Origin: a virus
Reading direction: 5' to 3' (one strand)
DNA: 64,000 nt
Virus record (IMG/VR): IMGVR_UViG_3300015171_000001
Span: 62,001 to 126,000 of that record
The notes below the pieces were generated by a model. The model did not search any database, was not told the origin of the DNA, and saw only the letters and a list, made by a program, of their open reading frames with translations. The position numbers and the translations under genes are program-made. This document shows positions 1,248 through 22,058 of the stretch, in pieces. How positions within the stretch are numbered: the first letter of the stretch is position 1; each line of letters begins with the position of its first letter.

Positions 1248-1847
1248 ATGAAAATCAAAATTTCAGAATTAAAATCAATAATACGTGAATGTATTAATGA
1301 GGAAAAACAAGTTTTATACGAAGCAATGACATATGATCAATTAGTACATGCGACTAAATCCAATTGGCCTACTAGATTTGAAAATACAAAAAATGTAATA
1401 ACAGTTCCTCCAAAATTAGTTGTTTTAAAAAGTGGAAATGTTGATTTGCAATTCAATTATAGATCAACAACATCAAAAAGTGGAAATTCTCACTTGGGGC
1501 AAATTATTTTCTTTCCAAATAAAATGAGTGCAATAAATAAATTTGGTAATTGGTGGAAGAAAATAAAAGATCAATTTAATAGATTTATTGGAAAGTCTGT
1601 TCCTCCAAATGTATTAAATAATGATGATTTGAGAAAAATGAATTGTAAATGCACTTGTGATTGCGAAGATTTTTTATATAGAATGGAAGTTGCCAATCAT
1701 AAGAAAGATGCTTCTGATATTAAATATAGCAATGGAAAAGATCCTATAATAAGAAACCCCCAAATGAGACCAGGATTATGTAAACATCTATTGGGAACTT
1801 TAAAATATCTTATAAACAAAAAACCATTAGAATCTGAAATAGATTAA
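1248..1847 (+). CDS. SWIM zinc-finger-like protein with capsid-targeting-like leader
   Basis: This 199-residue protein begins with the recurrent leader MKIKISELKSIIRECINE, ending in an I-N-E site at residue 18. The C-terminal third has closely spaced cysteines (C133, C135, C137, C139; the last two as CDCEDF) followed by C178-K-H180. This resembles a SWIM zinc finger, C-x-C...C-x-H, a nucleic-acid or protein binding fold. The next gene starts 1 base after its stop and carries the same type of leader. No catalytic motif is visible. I infer an internal head protein that is packaged and processed; its role after that is unknown. Confidence 0.55.
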   Translation: MKIKISELKSIIRECINEEKQVLYEAMTYDQLVHATKSNWPTRFENTKNVITVPPKLVVLKSGNVDLQFNYRSTTSKSGNSHLGQIIFFPNKMSAINKFGNWWKKIKDQFNRFIGKSVPPNVLNNDDLRKMNCKCTCDCEDFLYRMEVANHKKDASDIKYSNGKDPIIRNPQMRPGLCKHLLGTLKYLINKKPLESEID

Positions 1848-1848
1848 T

Positions 1849-2454
1849 ATGAAACTTTCAAAATTAAAAACATTAATAAAAGAATGTATATTGGAAATTA
1901 AAGATTCCCAAAGTAATGTGGAATTATTTAAGAAAAAATATAATATATCTGATAATGACGAAATTTATGATTTATTTAAAAGATTTAATAAAAATCTTCC
2001 TAGATTAACAAACAAAGATATTTTCAAATATTCTTCTTTAAATGATCTTACCTCGGCATTAAATAATACTGAATCAACTATTAGTAAAACACAAAGCAAA
2101 ATAAATATTTCAAAAAATGAAGTTGAAAAAATATTTGATAATGAAGAATGTTTAGTTATTAAACCATTAACTCATAACGCAATTATGAAATATGGAAGTG
2201 GGACAAAATGGTGCATTACTAGTGAAGATGGTGAGCATTATAAACAATATTTGGATCTTGGAATCACTTTTTATTTTATATTATGCAAAAAACTTCTGAC
2301 CACTGATCATTTATATAAAATATGCGTTATTGTTTATCCAAATGATATGCGTAAATATAGAAATTCCTTGGATCAAATTATTGATTTTAATAAAATTTCT
2401 TTTCTAAATTTATCAGAATCAATTTTTAAATCAACTCCACATAAATTACAATAA
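1849..2454 (+). CDS. Unknown protein with leader and GTKWCI motif
   Basis: This 201-residue protein starts with the leader MKLSKLKTLIKECILE, whose I-L-E site is at residue 16. The middle is lysine-rich and probably helical. Around residues 115-145 it has YGSGTKWCIT followed by YLDLGITFYFILCKK. I have seen G-TKWC segments followed by a FYFI strand in other uncharacterised phage proteins, but no function is established that I know of. It is coupled to the preceding leader gene. By leader and position I infer a packaged or head-associated protein. Confidence 0.5.
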   Translation: MKLSKLKTLIKECILEIKDSQSNVELFKKKYNISDNDEIYDLFKRFNKNLPRLTNKDIFKYSSLNDLTSALNNTESTISKTQSKINISKNEVEKIFDNEECLVIKPLTHNAIMKYGSGTKWCITSEDGEHYKQYLDLGITFYFILCKKLLTTDHLYKICVIVYPNDMRKYRNSLDQIIDFNKISFLNLSESIFKSTPHKLQ

Positions 2455-2492
2455 TGCATTTTATTATAATTTCGTATTGATATATAATCTAT

Positions 2493-3104
2493 ATGTCGAT
2501 TAAATATAAAGATTTCTTAAAAGTTGCCGCCAATGATTTTTCTTGTTTTGCACCAAAAGTAGGATGGACTCCAAAAAAAGGAAAAAGAAAAGTTGGAGAT
2601 ATTTGGGAAGATAGAGGTGGAAGAAAGTGGATTCAAAAAAATGGATATGTCGCATCTTATAATGAACAAGCAGACTCTATAAGAGAACAATTAAAAAAAC
2701 TGTGCGGTGTATGTAAAAAAAATATAGATTATGGTTCTAGAAATGATGTCGCAATTTATAAAAGTACTGGTAATTGTTTTGATTGTCAAATTGAATATGA
2801 AACAAAATTGAGATTTGAAGGGAAATATCCATATTATGAGAAAAAAAAGATGACCCAAAATGAATTATCTGAATATTCTGAATTTAAACAAAAAATTAGA
2901 GAAGGATATTATTCCATAAAAAAGAAAGAAGAAAATGTTTTTTATGATATTACCGGCCTAGATAATACATTGTTAAATGAAGACAAATGGTCAACTGTTG
3001 ATTCACAAGCATTAAAAAAGAGTTACATAGAAGATTATAAAATTGTTTGTAAACATATGTATAAATTAAAGAAATACATAAAAGAGTTAGATAAACATTT
3101 GTAA
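2493..3104 (+). CDS. Cys-rich protein immediately upstream of the terminase
   Basis: This is a 203-residue basic protein. It has two CxxC pairs (CGVCKK near residue 71 and CFDCQ near residue 97), which suggests a zinc ribbon, preceded by VGDIWEDRGGRKWIQKNGY and followed by a lysine-rich helical region. Its stop is one base before the terminase ATG, so the two are probably co-translated. In T4-type phages the small terminase subunit (gp16) sits next to gp17, so this could play that DNA-recognition role. I see no sequence proof of that, and a separate DNA-binding function is equally possible. Confidence 0.45.
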   Translation: MSIKYKDFLKVAANDFSCFAPKVGWTPKKGKRKVGDIWEDRGGRKWIQKNGYVASYNEQADSIREQLKKLCGVCKKNIDYGSRNDVAIYKSTGNCFDCQIEYETKLRFEGKYPYYEKKKMTQNELSEYSEFKQKIREGYYSIKKKEENVFYDITGLDNTLLNEDKWSTVDSQALKKSYIEDYKIVCKHMYKLKKYIKELDKHL

Positions 3105-3105
3105 T

Positions 3106-6100
3106 ATGAGTTCACATGAACAAGCAATTAAAAATAAAATTAAGGAAGAGTATAGACTGTGTGCTCAAGATCCAATTTATTTCATAAAAAAATACGTTAA
3201 AATAGAACATCCTGGAAAAGGTGTTATCCCATTTGAACTTTTCCCATTTCAAGAAGATGTCCTAAATCAATTTAGAGGTCATAATAAAAATATCGTCTTA
3301 AAAGCAAGACAAATGGGTATATCCACAGTTACTGCCGCTTATTGTTTGTGGTTGATGGTTTTCTTTGATAATAAAAAAATTGTTTGTTTGGCTACAAAAC
3401 AAGATACCGCTAAAGAAATTGTTACCCGTTGTAAATTTGGTTATGAACATTTGCCAAGTTGGTTGAGACCACTTGCTATTGAAAATAATAAACTTTCATT
3501 GGAATTAAAAACTGGTGGGAGAATTGCTGCTGAAACTGCTGCTATTGACTCTGCCAGAGGTAAGGCTCTATCTTTATTAATATTAGATGAAGTTGCATCT
3601 ATGAAGGATGCTGATGAAATATGGACTGCTGCGCAGAGTGCAACGACCCATGGTGGAGGCAGAGCAATATTAATTTCTTGTGTTACCAAAGATACATATG
3701 TTTTTACAAACCAAGGAATAAAACAAGTTAATGATTTTATAAAACACAAAAATATTGGAGGATATAATATTGAAAATTATTCAATATTGGGAAAATCTAA
3801 ACAAAGGACCGGAAATTTGTTCAAAAATAATGGAATTTGCGATACTATAAAAATAAAAACAAAATTTTCTGAGTTAGAAGGAAGTTCTGAGCATAAATTA
3901 TGGGCTTATAAAAAATCGGAACTTAAATTTGGGTGGTATAAATTAAAAGATTTGTCTTTAGAGGATTTTGTTTCAATACAATATGGAATGAACATTTGGG
4001 GGGGGAATGATTTATTAGATTATAAAACAACAAACAGAATTTATAATAAAAATAATTATCATTTCGACAAAATTACTCCCGCTTTAGCATATTTTTTTGG
4101 ATTATATATCTCAGAAGGATATATTAGTAAATCTTGCAATAAGGAAGGAAAATCAACAAGTGCTCGTATACACATATCTTGTGGAGATCCAGAAATTAAA
4201 TGGTGTTTTGAAAAATTAAATATAAAATACCACGTTAGAAATAATTTACAATATACTATAAACTCGAAAAATTTATTAGAATTATTTGAATATGTAGGAT
4301 TTGATATATCAAGAAGAGCGCAAAATAAAATAATTCCCAAAAGATTATTAGAAATGAGCAGAGAAAATATGATATATTTGTTACGAGGGATTTTTGATGG
4401 TGATGGAACTGCTTCAAAAGGTAATGTGTCGATTACATCAACATCTTCTATATTAATTGATCAATTACGAATAATTTTAAATAATTTTGGAATATTATCC
4501 TCCAGATATGTCCAAGACATAACTAAAAAAAATTTAGTTAATAAAAAAAATATTAATCCAAGTAATTTGCACATTAAAGGAAATTATGATAGTCATATAT
4601 TAGAAATTTATGGAAAAAATGCTTTGCAATATTTTAATGAAATTGGTTTTTGTCTAACAAGAAAACAGAATAAAAAAGAATTATTATTAGCACATAATTT
4701 AAATAGATCTTCTACTTCCGACATTATTCCAAATTCTGTTAAACTTGTTAAAGAATTAGTGAGAGTTTCTAATAAAACTACCACTTTTATTTATAAAAAT
4801 AACGATATATTTTTAAATTGTATATGCAACAATATAACAAAATATAAAACAAACAATGTATCAAGAGAACTTGTTTTGAAATTATACGACTTATTTGGAA
4901 AAAATTTATCTATAGAAAATAAAATCGAATATGATAAAATATTGTCCAGTAATTTGTGTTGGGTTAAAATAGATAAAATATTATATGATAGAAAAGAAAC
5001 ATATGATTTTTCTTTGCCGGAAAATGATGACGATTTTTGGTGTCACTCAATAATATATAATGGATTTTTAGGACATCAAACTCCAAAAGGTATAGGCAAT
5101 TTTTATCACAAAATGTGGGTAGACGCAGAAAATGGGGAAAATGGTTTTAATGCAATTAGATTACATTGGAGATTGCATCCAGAATATGATCAGACTTGGA
5201 GAGATGAACAAACAAAAACTCTTGGAGAAAAGGCGGCAAATCAGGAGTGCGAAGGAATATTTTTAGGAACTGGACATACTGTTATAGATGAACAATTTTT
5301 AAAACATTATAGAGAAAATGTAGTAAAAGAACCTATTTCCAAAACACAAGTTGGAGAATCTTTATGGACTTGGAAATATGCAAATTATAGTAAACAATAT
5401 TTAGTATCTGCTGACGTGGCAAGAGGAGATGGAAACGATTTTTCGGCAGCACAAATAATAGATTTAGATAATTTGGAACAAGTTGCTGAATTTAAAGGAA
5501 AAATGCCACCAAAAGAATTTGGAGCATTTTGTATAGGATTGGCAAGTCAATATAATAATGCGGTATTGGTAATAGAAAATAATAGCTTCGGCCATACAAC
5601 AATACAAGAATGCATAGACAGAGAATATCCTAATTTATTTTATTCAACAAATGATTTGCAATTTGTGGATGTTGAAAGAAATATATCAAATAAATTAAAT
5701 AGAGATGATAAAAGATTAATTCCAGGACATACTACAACATCTAAAAATAGAGTTCCAATGATTTCTAAATTGGAAATGGCAATGAGAGAAAAATCAATCA
5801 TAATAAATTCTCAGAGAACTATAGATGAATTGACTACTTTTATTTGGAATAATGGAAAACCAGAAGCTATGCGCTCTTATAATGACGACTTAATCATGTC
5901 ATTGTGTATAGCACTATGGATTAGAGACACAGCGATAAGACTTAAAGTAGAAAAAATTTCCCTTCAAAAAGAATTATTATTACATATGGGGAAAACTAAA
6001 CTTAATAACGAAAGACCTAGACAAGATAATTATAGTACCGCAGATAAAACTACTTCGGGAACACAAATATATAGTATCGGCGTTATGAATAAAAAAGAAA

Positions 6101-6159
6101 ATCCATATATCTATAAAATGGGAAATGGACATACAGAAGATTTTAAGTGGTTATTATAA
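3106..6159 (+). CDS. Terminase large subunit (gp17-like) interrupted by an intein
   Basis: This is the ATPase-nuclease motor that packages DNA into the prohead. The 1017-residue precursor becomes about 550 residues after loss of the intein (residues 192-658), close to the usual family size. The ATPase domain has KARQMGISTVTA at residues 66-77, a deviant Walker A in the place of T4 SRQLGKT, and Walker B LLIL-D161-E162. The exteins join as RAILIS/TPKGIGNFYHKMW, restoring the conserved coupling motif of terminases. The C-terminal RNase H-like nuclease shows SADVARGDG (D770), VIENNSFG (E824) and YNDDLIMS (D927/D928), the expected acidic triad. The gene follows a small Cys-rich gene by 1 base and precedes a short leader gene and the portal. 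Confidence 0.93.
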   Translation: MSSHEQAIKNKIKEEYRLCAQDPIYFIKKYVKIEHPGKGVIPFELFPFQEDVLNQFRGHNKNIVLKARQMGISTVTAAYCLWLMVFFDNKKIVCLATKQDTAKEIVTRCKFGYEHLPSWLRPLAIENNKLSLELKTGGRIAAETAAIDSARGKALSLLILDEVASMKDADEIWTAAQSATTHGGGRAILISCVTKDTYVFTNQGIKQVNDFIKHKNIGGYNIENYSILGKSKQRTGNLFKNNGICDTIKIKTKFSELEGSSEHKLWAYKKSELKFGWYKLKDLSLEDFVSIQYGMNIWGGNDLLDYKTTNRIYNKNNYHFDKITPALAYFFGLYISEGYISKSCNKEGKSTSARIHISCGDPEIKWCFEKLNIKYHVRNNLQYTINSKNLLELFEYVGFDISRRAQNKIIPKRLLEMSRENMIYLLRGIFDGDGTASKGNVSITSTSSILIDQLRIILNNFGILSSRYVQDITKKNLVNKKNINPSNLHIKGNYDSHILEIYGKNALQYFNEIGFCLTRKQNKKELLLAHNLNRSSTSDIIPNSVKLVKELVRVSNKTTTFIYKNNDIFLNCICNNITKYKTNNVSRELVLKLYDLFGKNLSIENKIEYDKILSSNLCWVKIDKILYDRKETYDFSLPENDDDFWCHSIIYNGFLGHQTPKGIGNFYHKMWVDAENGENGFNAIRLHWRLHPEYDQTWRDEQTKTLGEKAANQECEGIFLGTGHTVIDEQFLKHYRENVVKEPISKTQVGESLWTWKYANYSKQYLVSADVARGDGNDFSAAQIIDLDNLEQVAEFKGKMPPKEFGAFCIGLASQYNNAVLVIENNSFGHTTIQECIDREYPNLFYSTNDLQFVDVERNISNKLNRDDKRLIPGHTTTSKNRVPMISKLEMAMREKSIIINSQRTIDELTTFIWNNGKPEAMRSYNDDLIMSLCIALWIRDTAIRLKVEKISLQKELLLHMGKTKLNNERPRQDNYSTADKTTSGTQIYSIGVMNKKENPYIYKMGNGHTEDFKWLL
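3679..5079 (+). other. Intein with LAGLIDADG endonuclease in the terminase
   Basis: This is a 467-residue in-frame insertion, precursor residues 192-658. It starts with Cys in CVTKDTYVFTNQG and ends in GFLGHQ, followed by Thr659 as the +1 nucleophile. Removing it gives the uninterrupted motif ILISTPKG. Two LAGLIDADG-type helices are visible, FFGLYISEGYIS and LLRGIFDGDGTASKG, so the homing endonuclease is probably intact. Splicing residues are all plausible: Cys1, penultimate His, terminal Gln. It sits in the conserved ATPase coupling motif, a site typical for phage inteins. Confidence 0.9.
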
Positions 6160-6194
6160 AGGTTTTACAAAAAATTTCTCGATATATATACTAC

Positions 6195-6584
6195 ATGTCT
6201 ATTTTTCAATTAAAAAAACTAATTAATGAACAACTTTCCCTCTTATCTGAGGACTTTGATCCAAATACCTACGCAGCTAATGAAAAATCTGCATCAGATC
6301 AAAAAACACAAAGAGCATCAGATATAAATAAAAAATTGGCAACTGAAAAAGATCCTCTAAATAAATTAAAATTACAAAAGGCTTACGCTCTTGCGATGAG
6401 TGATAAGTCAGAAGCAGATTCTAAATTTAATAAAAAATTGTCAGAAGGTTATAAAAAATCAGCATCAGATACAGATAATCAAATAAAAATGTATAATATC
6501 AAATTGCAACAACAAAAAAATAATCCCCAAAATAATAGCCCCGATAATCAACCAAATCAAAATAATAACAATCCAAATTCATAA
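6195..6584 (+). CDS. Small Lys/Asn-rich protein with leader
   Basis: This 129-residue protein starts at ATG 6195; an upstream in-frame start would overlap the terminase end and add residues with no leader character. The N-terminus, MSIFQLKKLINEQLSLLSE, fits the leader pattern with an L-S-E site at residue 19. The rest is hydrophilic, with three similar KSASD/KSEAD segments, predicted helical, and ends in a low-complexity Asn/Gln/Pro tail. It lies between terminase and portal, where T4-type phages keep head-assembly genes. I infer a prohead core or internal protein. Confidence 0.5.
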   Translation: MSIFQLKKLINEQLSLLSEDFDPNTYAANEKSASDQKTQRASDINKKLATEKDPLNKLKLQKAYALAMSDKSEADSKFNKKLSEGYKKSASDTDNQIKMYNIKLQQQKNNPQNNSPDNQPNQNNNNPNS

Positions 6585-6587
6585 GTT

Positions 6588-9500
6588 ATGGCAGAAAAAT
6601 CAATATTCGCAGCACTTAAAAAAATATTCTCAAATGATGTCATCGTTCGTAATGTCGGTGGTAAAAAATTAAAAATAGTAGATCCTTCTAATGTTCAATA
6701 TGCTCCAGATGCTAATTCATTAAAAGATCGTTTTAATAGATTAAGATCTTCTAATTACGGAATATATTCTAGAGATATGATCATGTCATATCAATCAGCT
6801 AGAATTGAACTTTTTCGTGATTATGATTGTGTTTCTGGAGATACAATTATTCCTCTTCCTGATGGAACTAAACCAACTATAAAGGAACTGGCGGAGAAAT
6901 ATAAATATTTGCCACAAGAAAAATTTTATGTGTATTCATATGATCACGAAACAGATTCTATTAAATTAGGAAATGCTTTTCATCCCAGATCTAAAGGAAT
7001 TAAGCCAACATTCAAAGTAATATTAGATAATGATGAACATATTATTGGAACAGAAGATCATTTATTTCTTTGTAAAAATGGAGAATATAAAAAATTAAAA
7101 GAGTTAACAACAGGAGAATCTTTAATGCCATTTTATCAAAAAGATTTTTATGATAAAGGATATAGACATTTATACAATTTTTCTAAAGGATGGCAACCAG
7201 AACATAATGTTGTAGCAGAACAATTTTATAATAGACCCGTTTCAGAAAATGAAGTTGTACATCACAAAAATTTTAAACCATTTTGTAATTTTCCAGAAAA
7301 TTTGCAAATAATGGATAAAAAAGCTCATAGACAATTTCACATGGATCTAAATAATAAAAAAATATGGAGCCCAGAAAATTATGAAAAGCAATGCGAAATT
7401 ATAAGAGAAGCTGTTAAAAAAAGACCCATTTATTCTTGGAATGGAAAAAGAAAAGGAGAAAATAATCCCTTTTTTGGCAAAAAACATTCCGAAAATAGTA
7501 ATTTGATTAGATCTAAAAAATTAAAAGAATTTTCAAAAACCAGAAATTATACTTCAGAAAAAAATCCAAATTTTAATTCTAATATAACATTTGATTTAAT
7601 AAAAAACTTTTGTATTGATTTTTATAAAAATAACGGGGAATTTATAACAAGAAAAGAAATTAGAAAAGAATTGTCTTGCGATGAATCTATCATAACAAAT
7701 AGATTGAAAAATAACAATTATGATTGGAACAAATTTAAAAAAGAAATAATTTATACATTAAATCACAAAGTAAAATCAATTGAATATTATGGAGAAATTG
7801 AAGTATTTGATATTTCTGTTGAAAAGTATAACAACTTCGCTACCAACAACTTATTCTTACATAATTGTATGGACCTCGATCCAATCTTGGCGGCGGCACT
7901 AGATATATTTTCGGACGAAAGTCTAACAGAAAATGAATTTGGAAAAATTCTTTCTATTAAATCAGATGATGAGAATATTAAAGATATTCTTCATAATTTA
8001 TTTTATGATATTTTAAATATTGAATTTAATTTGTGGAGTTGGGTTAGAAATATGGTTAAGATGGGAGATTTTTTCTTAAAACTTGATATATCGAGTGAAT
8101 ATGGTGTCTTCATGGTTCACCCATTAAGTTCATATGAAGTTAGCCGAATAGAAACTATTGATGATAACGGAAATATCGTTTATAAGTTTAGACATGATGG
8201 TTCTAGAGGTCAGGGTGAGTTGGAAAATTATGAAGTGGCACATTTTAGATTACTTTCTGACACAAATTTTTTGCCTTATGGACGATCTATGTTAGAGGGC
8301 GCAAGAAGAACATGGAAACAACTTTGTTTACATTCTAATTCAAACATATGGACATCCAATGGATATAAAAAGATAAAAGACATAGAAATTGGAGATATTG
8401 TTTATTCATATGATTATAAAACATGCAAAACAATTCCAACTAAAGTCAAAAATTGTTTAAAAACAGGAAACAAAAAAACATACAAATTAAAAACAAGAAC
8501 TAGAGAATTAATATTAACAGGAGAACATCCGGTTTTAGTTAAGGATGTAGAAAATAATTATTCTTATAAAAAAGCAAAAGAATTAACAAAAAAAGACTAT
8601 ATTATTATTCCTACTATTGAAGATAATTTTGAGGAAAATAAAAAAATATTAATAAATAATACAAATTATTGTGTTAAATTAAATGATTTGGGAATAAATT
8701 ATGTTAAAAATACTATAAATTCCGTAGGAATTATTAAAAGAATTAAAGATTTAAATGTAAACCACAACTTTAAACAAATCCATGCATTTTTACAAGGAGA
8801 TAAAACATTACCTATAATTATTTTTAATAAAATAAAAGAAGAATTTAAAATAAATTATTCTCATATAAATTATCATATTGTTGGAAGTAAAAGAAATAGT
8901 ATATTAAATAAAGATTTTAATTTCGTCTTAACTAAAGAATTTGTTAGATTTTTTGGATTTATGTTAGGAGATGGTTGGACAAAAAATAATAATGTTTCAT
9001 TTGCAAGAGGAATTTATGATAATAAAAATGATTTTTATACAAATATATTAAAAAACTATTGTGAATCGGTCACAGTAAAAATCGGAACAAAGACAAGACC
9101 AAATTATCCAGGAAGTGTTAATGGATATTCAAAAGAATTATCTCATATATTTAATGAACTAGGATTCAAAACTGGATTTCAAAATAAAGAAATTCCTAAT
9201 TGGGTTTGGAATTTAAGCAAAGAACACAAAAAAGAATTTATAAAAGGGTTATTTGATGCCGATGGTTCTTGGAAGTGGGGTATTATTGGATTATCAAATG
9301 AAAAATTAATAACTCAATATAAAATATTATGTCAACAAACAGGCATAATGTGTAATGAAGTTAAATTGTGTGGCAATCGATCCGAACCAAAAACAGACAA
9401 ATTTGGGGTGACTAGGCAACCAACTTATAAATTATATGTTAATTTTAATAATGAATTTAATTTAGATTTTCAAAAAGTTTGTAGTGTGGATGAGTTTGAA

Positions 9501-18019: not shown

Positions 18020-19645
18020 ATGAGTATTAAGTCCTTATTAACAAACTCTAATTCTGCTCAAGATCGCTTGACTACAGAAACAAGAGCGTTACAATCAAAA
18101 TGGGCAAAGACTGGATTATTAGAAGGTTTATCAGAAATTGATAGATCTAATATGTCCGTGATCCTTGAAAATCAAGCTAAACAATTATTAGACGAAGCAA
18201 CCAGAACTGGTACTTCTGCAAATTCTGAACAATGGGCTGGCGTTGCTCTTCCATTAGTAAGACGTTTGTTCTCAGAAATCGCTTCTAAAGAATTCGTTTC
18301 AGTACAACCAATGAACCTTCCTTCGGGATTGGTATTCTATTTGGATTTCAAATATGGTACAAATCAAGCTGGTAATCCTGCTTTCTTGGGACAAAGCTTA
18401 TTCGGTGGAACAGGTATTAAACTTGGATCTACAGATTCAGCAGTAAATGGTCTTTATGGAACAGCACGTTATGGTTATTCAATGAATGATTATGTGAGTG
18501 CATCATTGTCATTAACAAGTGGTTCAGTATCATTTGATGATGTCGATTATAACTCTGCTTATAGTGCTTCAGCCATTGCTGGTCAATTAAGTAAAGTAAC
18601 TGTTGCTATCGGTGGAGACGCTGATCTTAATGGTGTTAGAGCATTTACTGTGTCTGGATCTGGTTTCTCAACCTATCTTCCACAATTCACAAAGGCTTCT
18701 AACGGTTTCGTAACATTCATTGTGTCAGGTTCTCCTTCCACAACCGCTACTGTTACTTATCAAGTTCAACCTGCTGACTTGTCAAGAGGTGACTTCGAAG
18801 ATAAAGCAACTGCTGCTGGTCCTGTTGGAAACAACTCTGGTGTTTATGCTGATATCGGCATTCCTGAAATTAACTTAGAAGTTAAGAGTGAAGCAATTGT
18901 TGCTAGGACACGTAAATTAAAAGCTGTTTGGACACCTGAACTTGCTCAAGATTTAAATGCTTATCACAGTATTGATGCTGAAGCTGAATTAACTGCTCTT
19001 CTTTCTGAGTATGTTGCTATGGAAGTTGACTTGGAAATTATTGACATGTTAGTTACTGCTGCTCCTGGACAAAACACAGAAGCTTGGAGTGCTATTATTG
19101 GTAATGAAATCATAAAGCAAGGCTACAATACAGATGGTAGTGCTACTTTCCAATATCAAGCTAACACAGCCACAAATCGTACTGCTTATGTAAAGTCCAC
19201 TTGGTATCAAACACTTGGTAACAAGATTCAAAAGGTATCTAACAATATTCACAAATTGACATTAAGAGGTGGTGCTAACTTCATCGTTTGTTCACCAGAT
19301 GTTGCTACTATTATCGAAAGTATTCCTGGATTCGTTCCTGATACTGATGGTGATAAGAGTAAATTTGCTATGGGCGTTGCTAAAGTTGGTGGTCTTTCAA
19401 ATCGTTGGACTATCTACAAGAATCCTTACATGACCGAGAACACCATGTTACTAGGATTCAGAGGAAACAACTTCTTTGAGTGTGGTGCTGTTTATAGCCC
19501 ATATATTCCATTGATTCAAACTCCATTAGTGTATGATCCTGTGAACTTTACACCTCGTAGAGGCGTGATGACTCGTTATGCAAAAAAGATGCTTAGACCG
19601 GAGTTCTTCGGCAAAATCTATGTAGGAGATTTAAATTATATCTAA
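18020..19645 (+). CDS. Major capsid protein (gp23-like)
   Basis: This 541-residue protein sits between the scaffold gene and a strong terminator, the T4 position of gp23. Codon use is less AT-rich than in the neighbours, as usual for a highly expressed protein. Residues 1-59 would be the N-terminal propeptide, ending NQAKQLLDE, with ATRTGTSANSEQWAGVALPLVRR following. This L-D-E site matches the [L/I]-x-E rule and the place where T4 gp23 is trimmed (after residue 65). The mature chain would be about 482 residues. The start is preceded by AAACAACAAAAAT with no Shine-Dalgarno. Confidence 0.88.
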   Translation: MSIKSLLTNSNSAQDRLTTETRALQSKWAKTGLLEGLSEIDRSNMSVILENQAKQLLDEATRTGTSANSEQWAGVALPLVRRLFSEIASKEFVSVQPMNLPSGLVFYLDFKYGTNQAGNPAFLGQSLFGGTGIKLGSTDSAVNGLYGTARYGYSMNDYVSASLSLTSGSVSFDDVDYNSAYSASAIAGQLSKVTVAIGGDADLNGVRAFTVSGSGFSTYLPQFTKASNGFVTFIVSGSPSTTATVTYQVQPADLSRGDFEDKATAAGPVGNNSGVYADIGIPEINLEVKSEAIVARTRKLKAVWTPELAQDLNAYHSIDAEAELTALLSEYVAMEVDLEIIDMLVTAAPGQNTEAWSAIIGNEIIKQGYNTDGSATFQYQANTATNRTAYVKSTWYQTLGNKIQKVSNNIHKLTLRGGANFIVCSPDVATIIESIPGFVPDTDGDKSKFAMGVAKVGGLSNRWTIYKNPYMTENTMLLGFRGNNFFECGAVYSPYIPLIQTPLVYDPVNFTPRRGVMTRYAKKMLRPEFFGKIYVGDLNYI

Positions 19646-19676: not shown

Positions 19677-19710
19677 AAAAAAGAGCGATAGAAATATCGC
19701 TCTTTTTTTA
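19677..19710 (+). terminator. Rho-independent terminator after the capsid gene
   Basis: A 10-bp stem AAGAGCGATA / TATCGCTCTT with a GAAA loop is followed by a T-rich tract. It closes the head transcript and insulates the following mobile gene. Confidence 0.9.
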
Positions 19711-19738: not shown

Positions 19739-19767
19739 TTGACAAATTTTTTATATATTGATATAAT
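19739..19767 (+). promoter_or_regulatory. Consensus sigma70-type promoter of the endonuclease-methyltransferase
   Basis: TTGACA at 19739-19744 and TATAAT at 19762-19767 are separated by 17 bases, a perfect sigma70-type match. The ATG at 19773 follows the -10 box by only 5 bases, so the transcript would be leaderless or nearly so. It lies right after the capsid terminator, which gives this mobile gene its own expression. Confidence 0.75.
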
Positions 19768-19772
19768 AATAT

Positions 19773-21773
19773 ATGATTAAAAATAATAATGAAATTGTTA
19801 TATCAGAAGAAGAATCTAAAATTTGTTTAATTGATAATAAAAAATTTGATTCTAGTAGAAAAATGATATGGTATGTTAGAAAAACATATAATTTATCCTT
19901 CGAAGATTATATTATTAAATATTATTATAATAATAACATTCCTACTTGTTTAAAAACAGGAAAACTTTTAACATTTAAAGCACATAAAACCGGTCCGTGG
20001 TTTTCTAATTATTCAAAAAACAATTTTCCAAGAAAAGAACATACTTTAGAAAGCAAAGAAAAAATAAAAAATTCTCTTAAGAAGAATACAATGATAAAAT
20101 ACGGAGTTGAGAATATTTTTCAATTGGATTGGTGTAAAGAAAAAATTAAAAATACTAATTTACAAAAATATAATGTAGACAATCCTGCGAAAAATAAAGA
20201 AATTTATGATAAAGTAAAAAATACTAATTTAGAAAAATATGGAGTAGATAATCCTAGAAAAAACAAAGAAATTAACAAAAAAATAGAAGATACAAATTTA
20301 AAAAAGTATGGGAAGCCTACAGTGTGGGGGACAGATCATTTTATTAAAGTTTTTAAAAAGAATTTTTTAAAAAAATATGGGGTAGATAATCCTATGCATG
20401 TTAAAGAATTTAGAGATAAATGTGCTGAAAAAATTAAAAAATACATGCTAGAAAATTTCTTAAAAAATAGAAATAATAGATCAAATACTAAACCAGAAAA
20501 ACAATTCATAGAATTTTTGAAACAAATTAATGAACCATATGTGCATCAATTTAAAACAAAGCATGGCATTATAGACTTTTACCTGCCTTCAAAAAAATTA
20601 TTTATAGAAATTGATGGAGATTATTGGCACAGAGAAATAAAAGAAAATTTGAATTATACTCAATTGTATAACTCCATTAGAGATTTTAATAAAAATAAAA
20701 ATATTAAAAAGCTAATAAGAATAAAAGCCTCTGCCGTTAAAAATTTAAAAACGATGGATGACATTTATAATAATCAATATTATCAACAAACTTCTTTAAA
20801 TTTTGATCAAAAGATATTAAATAAAGATTATAATATATGGAGCATTATAAATAAAGGAAAAGAAAAAGTTGAAAAAAGACTATATACATTAGTAAAATTT
20901 ATAAAATTATTTAGTCCGAACTTTCCAAAATATGTTTCTTTGGAAACCGATATTTTAAAAATATCTGAATATATTAAAAAATATATAATAGATGAAAATA
21001 ATATAGATTACTTTCATTGGAAAATACCTTCTATCGGGAATGGTTATTTAAAAAACATATTTGATTCATATTGGAAATCGTCATATAATAAGAGTATTTC
21101 GCCAAAAGATTTGTGGGAAAATGAAAAAATATTATATTCTATTATAAAATATAGAATAGGGTGTAATAATAGTGGAGAAGTATTTGATTTTTCTTTAAAA
21201 GAAATTCTTAAAGGAATGTCTGCACAAAGATATACAATATCTTTTTTTAAACCTTGTTTGGCTGCTCTTATTTATAAAAAATATTTGGGAAACAAAATAA
21301 CTCCTATAGTCTTAGATCCTTGTTGTGGATTTGGTGGAAGACTCCTTGGGTTTAAAAGTGTTTATTCTAATGGAATATATATTGGCTGCGAACCAAATAC
21401 AGAAACATATAATGAATTAATTATTCTTAGAAATAATATGGGATATGATGAGAGTACTGTAAAATTATTTAATTGTAAATTTGAAGACTTTCAATATCCA
21501 TTAGATAATATTGATTTTACATTTACAAGTATTCCATATTATGATTTAGAAATATATTCGGAAAAAATAGAATATTTGGATTTTAATGAATGGAAAAATA
21601 CTTTTATATATTCTATAGAAAATAAAACAAAAAATTGCTATATAAACGCACCTATAGATATTTGCGAAAAATTGGGATGGACAAATTGTGTGTCAAAAAT
21701 ATTTATAAATTCTTCTCATTTTTCTAAAGACAAAGAAAACAAAAAATTTGAAAACATTGTTAAATTAAATTAA
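19773..21773 (+). CDS. Homing-type endonuclease fused to a DNA methyltransferase-like domain
   Basis: This is a 666-residue three-part protein. Residues about 95-225 hold four to five repeats of the KYGVDNP type, DNA-binding modules common in phage homing endonucleases. Residues about 240-320 form a PD-(D/E)xK, Vsr/DUF559-like nuclease: KPEKQFIEFL, IIDFYLP (D268), LFIEIDGDYWH (E279, D281). Residues about 500-660 look like a SAM-dependent DNA methyltransferase: motif I VLDPCCGFGGR (D515) and motif IV FTSIPYYDLEIYS (586-590). The usual motif IV in this family is S/N-P-P-Y; here the first Pro is Ile. It is expressed from its own promoter in an insertion between capsid and neck genes. It may be a self-protecting homing element. 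Activity of either domain is unproven. Confidence 0.7.
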   Translation: MIKNNNEIVISEEESKICLIDNKKFDSSRKMIWYVRKTYNLSFEDYIIKYYYNNNIPTCLKTGKLLTFKAHKTGPWFSNYSKNNFPRKEHTLESKEKIKNSLKKNTMIKYGVENIFQLDWCKEKIKNTNLQKYNVDNPAKNKEIYDKVKNTNLEKYGVDNPRKNKEINKKIEDTNLKKYGKPTVWGTDHFIKVFKKNFLKKYGVDNPMHVKEFRDKCAEKIKKYMLENFLKNRNNRSNTKPEKQFIEFLKQINEPYVHQFKTKHGIIDFYLPSKKLFIEIDGDYWHREIKENLNYTQLYNSIRDFNKNKNIKKLIRIKASAVKNLKTMDDIYNNQYYQQTSLNFDQKILNKDYNIWSIINKGKEKVEKRLYTLVKFIKLFSPNFPKYVSLETDILKISEYIKKYIIDENNIDYFHWKIPSIGNGYLKNIFDSYWKSSYNKSISPKDLWENEKILYSIIKYRIGCNNSGEVFDFSLKEILKGMSAQRYTISFFKPCLAALIYKKYLGNKITPIVLDPCCGFGGRLLGFKSVYSNGIYIGCEPNTETYNELIILRNNMGYDESTVKLFNCKFEDFQYPLDNIDFTFTSIPYYDLEIYSEKIEYLDFNEWKNTFIYSIENKTKNCYINAPIDICEKLGWTNCVSKIFINSSHFSKDKENKKFENIVKLN

Positions 21774-22058
21774 TGCATTTAATTTAACAATTCCTTCTTC
21801 ATCAACATACTCCAAAACCTTTCCACTAGTAGAATTATAAATATTCAATAACACGACAGATTCCCTAGATTTTTTAGAATGTATTCCTTTATTAGATTCT
21901 GGGATATATATTTTCCTATGACAATTTGGGCATAACCAGATTCTATTCCAATCATCATTTTGTCCTTTTAACTCTCTAGGAACAATATGATGATAATCAA
22001 TTTTAGTTCTATCGTTGGTCGTGTAAGAACATTTAGGAAATTGACATTTATAACGCAT
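21765..22058 (-). CDS. HNH endonuclease
   Basis: This 97-residue protein on the minus strand has the HNH core DYHHIVPRELKG, then NRIWLCPNCHRKIY, with a preceding CQFPKC pair for a structural zinc. It converges on the endonuclease-methyltransferase gene, and the two 3' ends overlap by 9 bases. Its start is only 20 bases from the divergent start at 22079. It is probably a small free-standing homing or nicking endonuclease; a role in DNA packaging is less likely given its orientation. Confidence 0.8.
   Translation of the reverse strand: MRYKCQFPKCSYTTNDRTKIDYHHIVPRELKGQNDDWNRIWLCPNCHRKIYIPESNKGIHSKKSRESVVLLNIYNSTSGKVLEYVDEEGIVKLNALI

Follow-up and report, generated by a model that had tools for sequence, protein, structure and literature searches.

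A gene lying behind the major capsid gene of a phage joins, in one chain of 666 amino acids, a homing-type nuclease to a DNA methyltransferase-like module, and members of the same methyltransferase family are fused to several other classes of homing-type nuclease in other phages. The gene occupies positions 19773-21773 (+) of the window, the 64,000-nucleotide stretch of viral DNA that was analysed, and starts 128 nt past the end of a gp23-type capsid gene (18020-19645), in agreement with the initial annotation, which had described an insertion after the capsid gene. The reading favoured here, with somewhat better than even confidence, is that of a free-standing, intron-less homing gene of the EDxHD/Vsr-like type that carries its own DNA amino-methyltransferase and protects its intact target with it. 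The features of the locus are as follows.

18020..19645, + strand: gp23-type major capsid gene (MCP); Pfam Gp23, 1.6e-72
19677..19708, + strand: intrinsic terminator of the capsid gene; 14-pair stem and T run
19739..19767, + strand: consensus sigma-70-type promoter of the fusion gene; TTGACA-17-TATAAT, 12/12 match, 17-nt spacer
19773..21773, + strand: homing endonuclease-methyltransferase fusion gene; 666 aa
20046..20465, + strand: NUMOD-like helical YGVDNP repeats, aa 92-231; Pfam DUF7487 over aa 146-288, helical in the model
20466..20780, + strand: predicted EDxHD/Vsr-fold nuclease, aa 232-336; Foldseek 3r3p (2.6e-4), then Vsr (1cw0/1vsr)
20805..21242, + strand: helical N-terminal part of the methyltransferase module, aa 345-490; common to stand-alone relatives, from the model
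21243..21770, + strand: predicted class I SAM-methyltransferase core, aa 491-666; fold matches
21315..21341, + strand: motif I, DPCCGFGGR (SAM loop), aa 515-523; nearly invariant
21378..21398, + strand: motif II region, YIGCEPN; nearly invariant
21525..21551, + strand: motif IV, TSIPYYDLE (FTSIPYYDLE is aa 584-593); TSIPY in 24/25 distinct full-length members
21765..22058, - strand: small HNH nuclease gene, 97 aa; Pfam HNH, 2.4e-7

Behind the capsid terminator, at whose position relatives show another hairpin, lies the promoter that the initial annotation had credited to the fusion gene. Its match to the consensus is perfect, as claimed; however, the TATAAT element ends 5 nt ahead of the ATG, so that a transcript would be leaderless if the promoter is used, the region is AT-rich (31 promoter-like sites against 22 expected), and most relatives of the gene lack the consensus promoter. 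Because of the leaderless start and this absence from relatives, the promoter is given little weight. An Rfam search found no intron or RNA element around the fusion gene. The convergent HNH gene overlaps its 3' end by 9 nt and constitutes a second nuclease in the slot, and more homing-endonuclease-like matches, corresponding to the repeat/Vsr part, occur in the same phage genome (G000:C1 112696-113391, -; 95123-95665, +).

The N-terminal half of the protein matches Pfam DUF7487 (1.8e-18) and a PHROG homing endonuclease (5.6e-20), which gives substance to the YGVDNP repeats that had been noticed in the sequence. The number of these NUMOD-like repeats differs among fusion members, and they would serve in DNA binding. 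Folded by itself, the nuclease part reached a pLDDT of 88.8, and its best Foldseek match was I-Bth0305I (3r3p, E 2.6e-4), with Vsr next; a sequence profile also matches 3r3p (7.5e-6). Residues D268, D281, H286 and D304 are invariant in 22 members, and E242, E279 and K307 are nearly so, a set that contains the three residues (D268, E279 and D281) on which a Vsr-like nuclease had originally been proposed and extends them by E242, H286 and D304, among others. By its modelled fold and its conserved acidic and histidine residues, this half fits an EDxHD/Vsr-like homing endonuclease, and cleavage of DNA is predicted. A profile match to Mom (8bv8, E 0.0036) was weak, and a PPR identity, the sole outcome of a single-sequence PDB search with the full protein, was dismissed as a chance match.

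An AlphaFold2 model of the full protein, built from 22 relatives, has a mean pLDDT of 83.9, with the nuclease and methyltransferase parts mostly above 90. Class I SAM methyltransferases are the best PDB matches of the full model, one of them being a type I restriction-modification methyltransferase subunit (3lkd), and pithovirus methyltransferases named as N4-cytosine enzymes are among the matches to viral structures; the global TM-scores of the fold matches are low because the query is multi-domain. The initial annotation had placed a methyltransferase domain in the same chain as the nuclease, while allowing that it might prove to be another Rossmann enzyme or to lack SAM-pocket residues. The fold search ruled out the former, and the residues of motifs I, II and IV, with DPCCGFGGR and TSIPY among them, are conserved. 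The C-terminal domain, with its motif I and motif II acid, fits the class I SAM-methyltransferase fold in the model and is predicted to methylate DNA. No separate target-recognition domain is present in the window protein past the methyltransferase core.

Motif IV of the gp23/Vsr clade differs from the amino-methyltransferase pattern (N/D/S)PP(Y/F/W): TSIPY is found in 24 of the 25 distinct genes, TSTPY in the other one, and TSIPF in L078, which stands outside the 25-gene count. The isoleucine had raised the thought that the methyltransferase may be altered or non-catalytic. A DNA- or SAM-binding module devoid of catalysis, aiding target recognition or gating cleavage, would agree with the replacement of the first Pro of S/N/D-P-P-Y in nearly the whole clade and with the lack of a separate recognition domain, yet it is highly improbable: the SAM-loop and motif IV residues are strongly constrained, fusions with other nucleases mostly keep TSPPY/TCPPY, and SIPY is an active motif in Erm/KsgA enzymes. 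The motif (N/D)PP(Y/F/W) is characteristic of monomethylating N6-adenine enzymes, and (A/S/N)(L/I/V)P(Y/F) of dimethylating enzymes such as KsgA and Erm, in which the small hydrophobic residue permits the second methylation (PMC6787224, PMC3814359). SIPY fits the dimethylating N6-adenine motif and is not a sign of decay, and the window enzyme is predicted to dimethylate DNA adenine. Purifying selection acts on both halves of the protein: in four pairs, three of them with dS near saturation, dN/dS is 0.08-0.17 in the nuclease half and 0.10-0.23 in the methyltransferase half. The methyltransferase is the best conserved part, at a mean pairwise identity of 47%, ahead of the nuclease (37%) and the repeats (32%). 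With motif IV fixed and both halves constrained, a degenerate methyltransferase is unsupported.

When the whole protein and the C-domain were used as queries, some 25 distinct full-length fusions were recovered from IMG/VR and a further one from phage LR756508 (484 kb); the relatives are nearly all metagenomic contigs, and no cultured phage carrying the fusion was found. Among cultured phages, those closest in capsid protein, the Flavobacterium immuto phages (52%) and Microcystis phage Mel-JY01 (51%), have no such gene annotated behind the capsid gene. Twenty-four distinct full-length fusions, that of the window included, start 75-359 nt 3' of a gp23-type MCP, and the MCPs of the other carriers are 40-65% identical to that of the window. 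Where the contig reaches upstream, all recovered fusion genes but one sit 3' of the MCP, with another nuclease-like gene between the two in LR756508 (L057) and other genes between them in L080. The exception is L078 (3335-6945), whose fusion gene is flanked by an unassigned 449-aa ORF and, on the other side, by a tail-tube-like gene. The capsid (1555-3147) and fusion (4987-6990) frames of L080 are broken by TGA only, several of these codons falling at conserved Trp, and its fusion gene has three in-frame TGA codons where relatives have Trp or another aromatic residue. L080 is probably a phage that reads TGA as Trp, in which the mobile gene would have adapted to the recoding, and the placement of TGA at Trp or aromatic positions suggests that the gene has long resided there. 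In L004, a Mom-family DNA-modification gene (6893-7672, -; Pfam Mom, 1.2e-43) adjoins the post-capsid slot, and similar minus-strand ORFs occur in L170-L186, also in relatives without the fusion.

The fusion gene is mobile and bears the genomic marks of a free-standing homing gene, namely a patchy distribution with empty sites and horizontal movement. This mobility, previously assumed, became evident when capsid junctions were compared with those of phages lacking the gene, which present clean empty sites: 2053 nt in L006 correspond to about 64 nt in L192 and L156, and 1996 nt in L004 to 21 nt in L180/L176. The slot is filled by a GIY-YIG gene in L157 and L174 (the domain was confirmed in the like gene of L150), and zinc-finger homing genes are also found in it in other phages. 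L006 keeps a 3' remnant of a GIY-YIG gene behind its fusion gene, which indicates that one homing gene replaced another. On an MCP tree, a quick tree with some long branches, the fusion label undergoes 17 gain/loss changes, at least 13 of them forced by supported branches. Identities of the fusion and of the MCP disagree within pairs of carriers, at 88% and 68%, respectively, for L001/L004, 45% and 86% for L004/L067, and 36% and 80% for L084/L096; at the DNA level, the cassette of L001 and L004 is mostly 84-93% identical (67% in one window of the alignment), as against 54-84% for the capsid gene and 61-66% downstream. The empty sites and the tree conflict rule out a normal, vertically inherited head gene. 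T4 segD sits between genes 23 and 24 (PMC2988022), in the same gap, and the post-capsid slot can thus be regarded as an old homing-gene slot.

The methyltransferase family, METHYLTRANSFERASE, is not confined to this nuclease. Its partner is a LAGLIDADG nuclease in L113, L110, L063 and some fifteen further contigs. In L099 it shares one chain with homing-associated HNH repeats and a PD-(D/E)XK-like nuclease, and in L236-L250 it is joined to a MucR-finger/Vsr-like nuclease, which was assigned by motif only. In L100 (2438-4691), the HNH-repeat/PD-(D/E)XK-like nuclease and the methyltransferase are encoded behind a capsid gene by two genes that overlap, that of the nuclease coming first. The LAGLIDADG fusions, in every contig reaching upstream, and both HNH-repeat loci lie directly 3' of the major head protein phrog_2522, a different family from the gp23-type MCP. 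A large protein upstream of the MucR/Vsr-like fusions has a tail-sheath-like start, with no library match confirmed, and is left unassigned. The fusion loci of L092 and L091 are near-identical, with an N-terminal finger region out of frame in one of them, through degeneration or sequencing error. Fusions with these other nuclease classes mostly have TSPPY/TCPPY at motif IV. On a quick methyltransferase tree, whose deep branches are weak, the gp23/Vsr fusions form one clade (support 100), the LAGLIDADG fusions fall into two groups, and the MucR/Vsr-like fusions are nested with one of these LAGLIDADG groups; together with the several nuclease classes, this tree suggests that nuclease modules were probably exchanged or gained on more than one occasion, with the methyltransferase retained.

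The C-domain also has stand-alone relatives, in Bacteroides phage DAC16 (which matches aa 322-612 of the window protein by tblastn), in Vibrio phage 2.058.O, in Twort-like staphylococcal phages and in many contigs; they carry TSPPY or SSPPY at motif IV, and none adjoins a capsid gene in the records examined. Bacterial and archaeal genome contigs yielded only two distant stand-alone relatives, and a host restriction locus was rejected on this ground. Such stand-alone TSPPY genes away from capsid genes, and the frequency of orphan methylases in phages (PMC9957025), would suit an anti-restriction role, in which an orphan methyltransferase hides phage DNA from host restriction and the homing nuclease merely spreads it. 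This role is distinctly unlikely for the fusions, since the repeated linkage with several nuclease classes, in one chain or in overlapping genes, and a motif IV that changed to SIPY in the gp23/Vsr clade alone suggest that the functions of the two halves are linked.

In the favoured reading, a self-protecting homing gene, the two halves would act on the same DNA. During co-infection with a related phage lacking the gene, the repeats and nuclease would cleave that phage's DNA at a conserved sequence around the capsid 3' end or in its vicinity, and, with the carrier genome as repair template, the fusion gene would be copied into the slot behind the capsid gene. Judging from this slot, the capsid gene probably holds the cleavage site; other free-standing homing enzymes are able to cleave at distances of hundreds to thousands of bp. 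Insertion beside the target would leave the carrier's own target intact and uninterrupted, and changes in its sequence would not easily shield it. The methyltransferase, assumed to be guided by the same DNA-binding repeats, would methylate this target, most likely at adenine N6 and possibly twice, and carriers and newly converted genomes would then be spared from cutting by the attached nuclease. The site of cleavage, the methylation and its specificity, and the protection that follows are thus predictions from architecture and context. The initial annotation had spoken of protecting an occupied site; with a free-standing homing gene no site is occupied, since insertion takes place next to the target, and it is because the target stays intact that its modification would be useful.

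Target polymorphism is another way to escape self-cleavage. No position of the capsid gene separates carriers from non-carriers (the largest frequency difference is 0.47), and a carrier-specific capsid allele was rejected as the source of immunity. Near the capsid 3' end, the carrier L006 and the non-carriers L157, L192 and L156 share a 100-bp stretch at 98-100% identity; with this near-identity and no separating position, sequence-based immunity is not visible. An intron in the intact neighbouring target provides the protection in the case of F-CphI (PMC6083498). Modification is not obligatory in the slot, since GIY-YIG and zinc-finger homing genes reside there without a methyltransferase. 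The combined observations suggest selfish genes that methylate their own cutting site for safety from themselves.

The same self-protection step is common to another reading, in which the protein is a single-chain restriction-modification unit that cuts co-infecting relatives, in superinfection exclusion or interference competition, methylation shields the carrier, and homing is secondary. Nuclease and methyltransferase share one chain in Type IIC enzymes (PMC4081073), interference competition by a phage homing enzyme is on record (PMC11620839), and the capsid genes of carriers are so diverged that repair from a carrier would be poor. Nevertheless, a weapon of this kind is unlikely to be the main role of a gene that clearly moves between phages, displaces other homing genes and resides in a homing-gene slot, and the window protein has no match to PADLOC models.

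A broader proposal, quite unlikely to hold as a whole, describes a class of self-immunising homing genes, built repeatedly from unrelated homing nucleases and one methyltransferase family, concentrated behind capsid genes, and placing N6,N6-dimethyladenine at the gp23/Vsr homing target. So far, the avoidance of self-cleavage with an intact target has been answered case by case, through target polymorphism or an intron in the target. If self-protection by methylation is true, a modification domain built into the enzyme would offer a general way out of self-cleavage, it would account for homing genes beside the most conserved phage genes, and homing endonucleases and restriction-modification would form one continuum. 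The fusions would also offer single-chain cutters of long sites, each paired with its own 'off' mark, and would make it possible to test directly whether enzymes with an Erm-like motif IV dimethylate DNA adenine.

No description of homing endonuclease-methyltransferase fusions as a class was found in the open-access full texts searched, a collection that lacks most subscription papers. The individual parts have clear counterparts. I-Bth0305I and related EDxHD (Vsr-like) enzymes with NUMOD repeats resemble the window protein in nuclease fold, in a repeat-based DNA-binding part and in being encoded by mobile phage genes, but I-Bth0305I is listed among group I intron enzymes, whereas the window gene is free-standing and has a C-terminal methyltransferase. 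The free-standing Seg/Mob enzymes of T4-like phages are likewise intergenic, patchy and beside conserved genes, segD being in the same slot; segD is a GIY-YIG enzyme in opposite orientation to genes 23/24, and no methyltransferase is mentioned for Seg/Mob enzymes (PMC2988022), unlike the window protein. In Type IIC/IIG enzymes (PMC4081073), too, one chain carries a PD-(D/E)XK-related nuclease at its N-terminus and an amino-methyltransferase behind it. The window protein has TSIPY in place of their gamma-class NPPY/F/W motif IV, homing-type NUMOD recognition, a Vsr/EDxHD core, mobility and a slot behind the capsid gene. It would work like a Type IIC enzyme but is not filed as one, given the difference in motif IV.

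The nearest published case is the Taj_79-type methylase, into which a LAGLIDADG nuclease is inserted (Gosselin et al. 2023, PMC9957025), and which, like the LAGLIDADG fusions described above, combines a nuclease and a DNA methyltransferase in one phage protein. The nuclease of Taj_79 was read as a selfish insertion inside the methylase in one group of related phages, and its authors weighed a restriction-modification role and thought it unlikely (PMC9957025). Here, in contrast, the nuclease lies ahead of a methyltransferase that is not interrupted, it belongs to one of several classes, and the gene as a whole is found behind capsid genes. Collaborative homing by F-CphI (PMC6083498) presents the same problem as the window gene, a free-standing enzyme whose intact neighbouring target needs guarding from self-cleavage; F-CphI guards its target by an intron, and the window gene probably by methylation.
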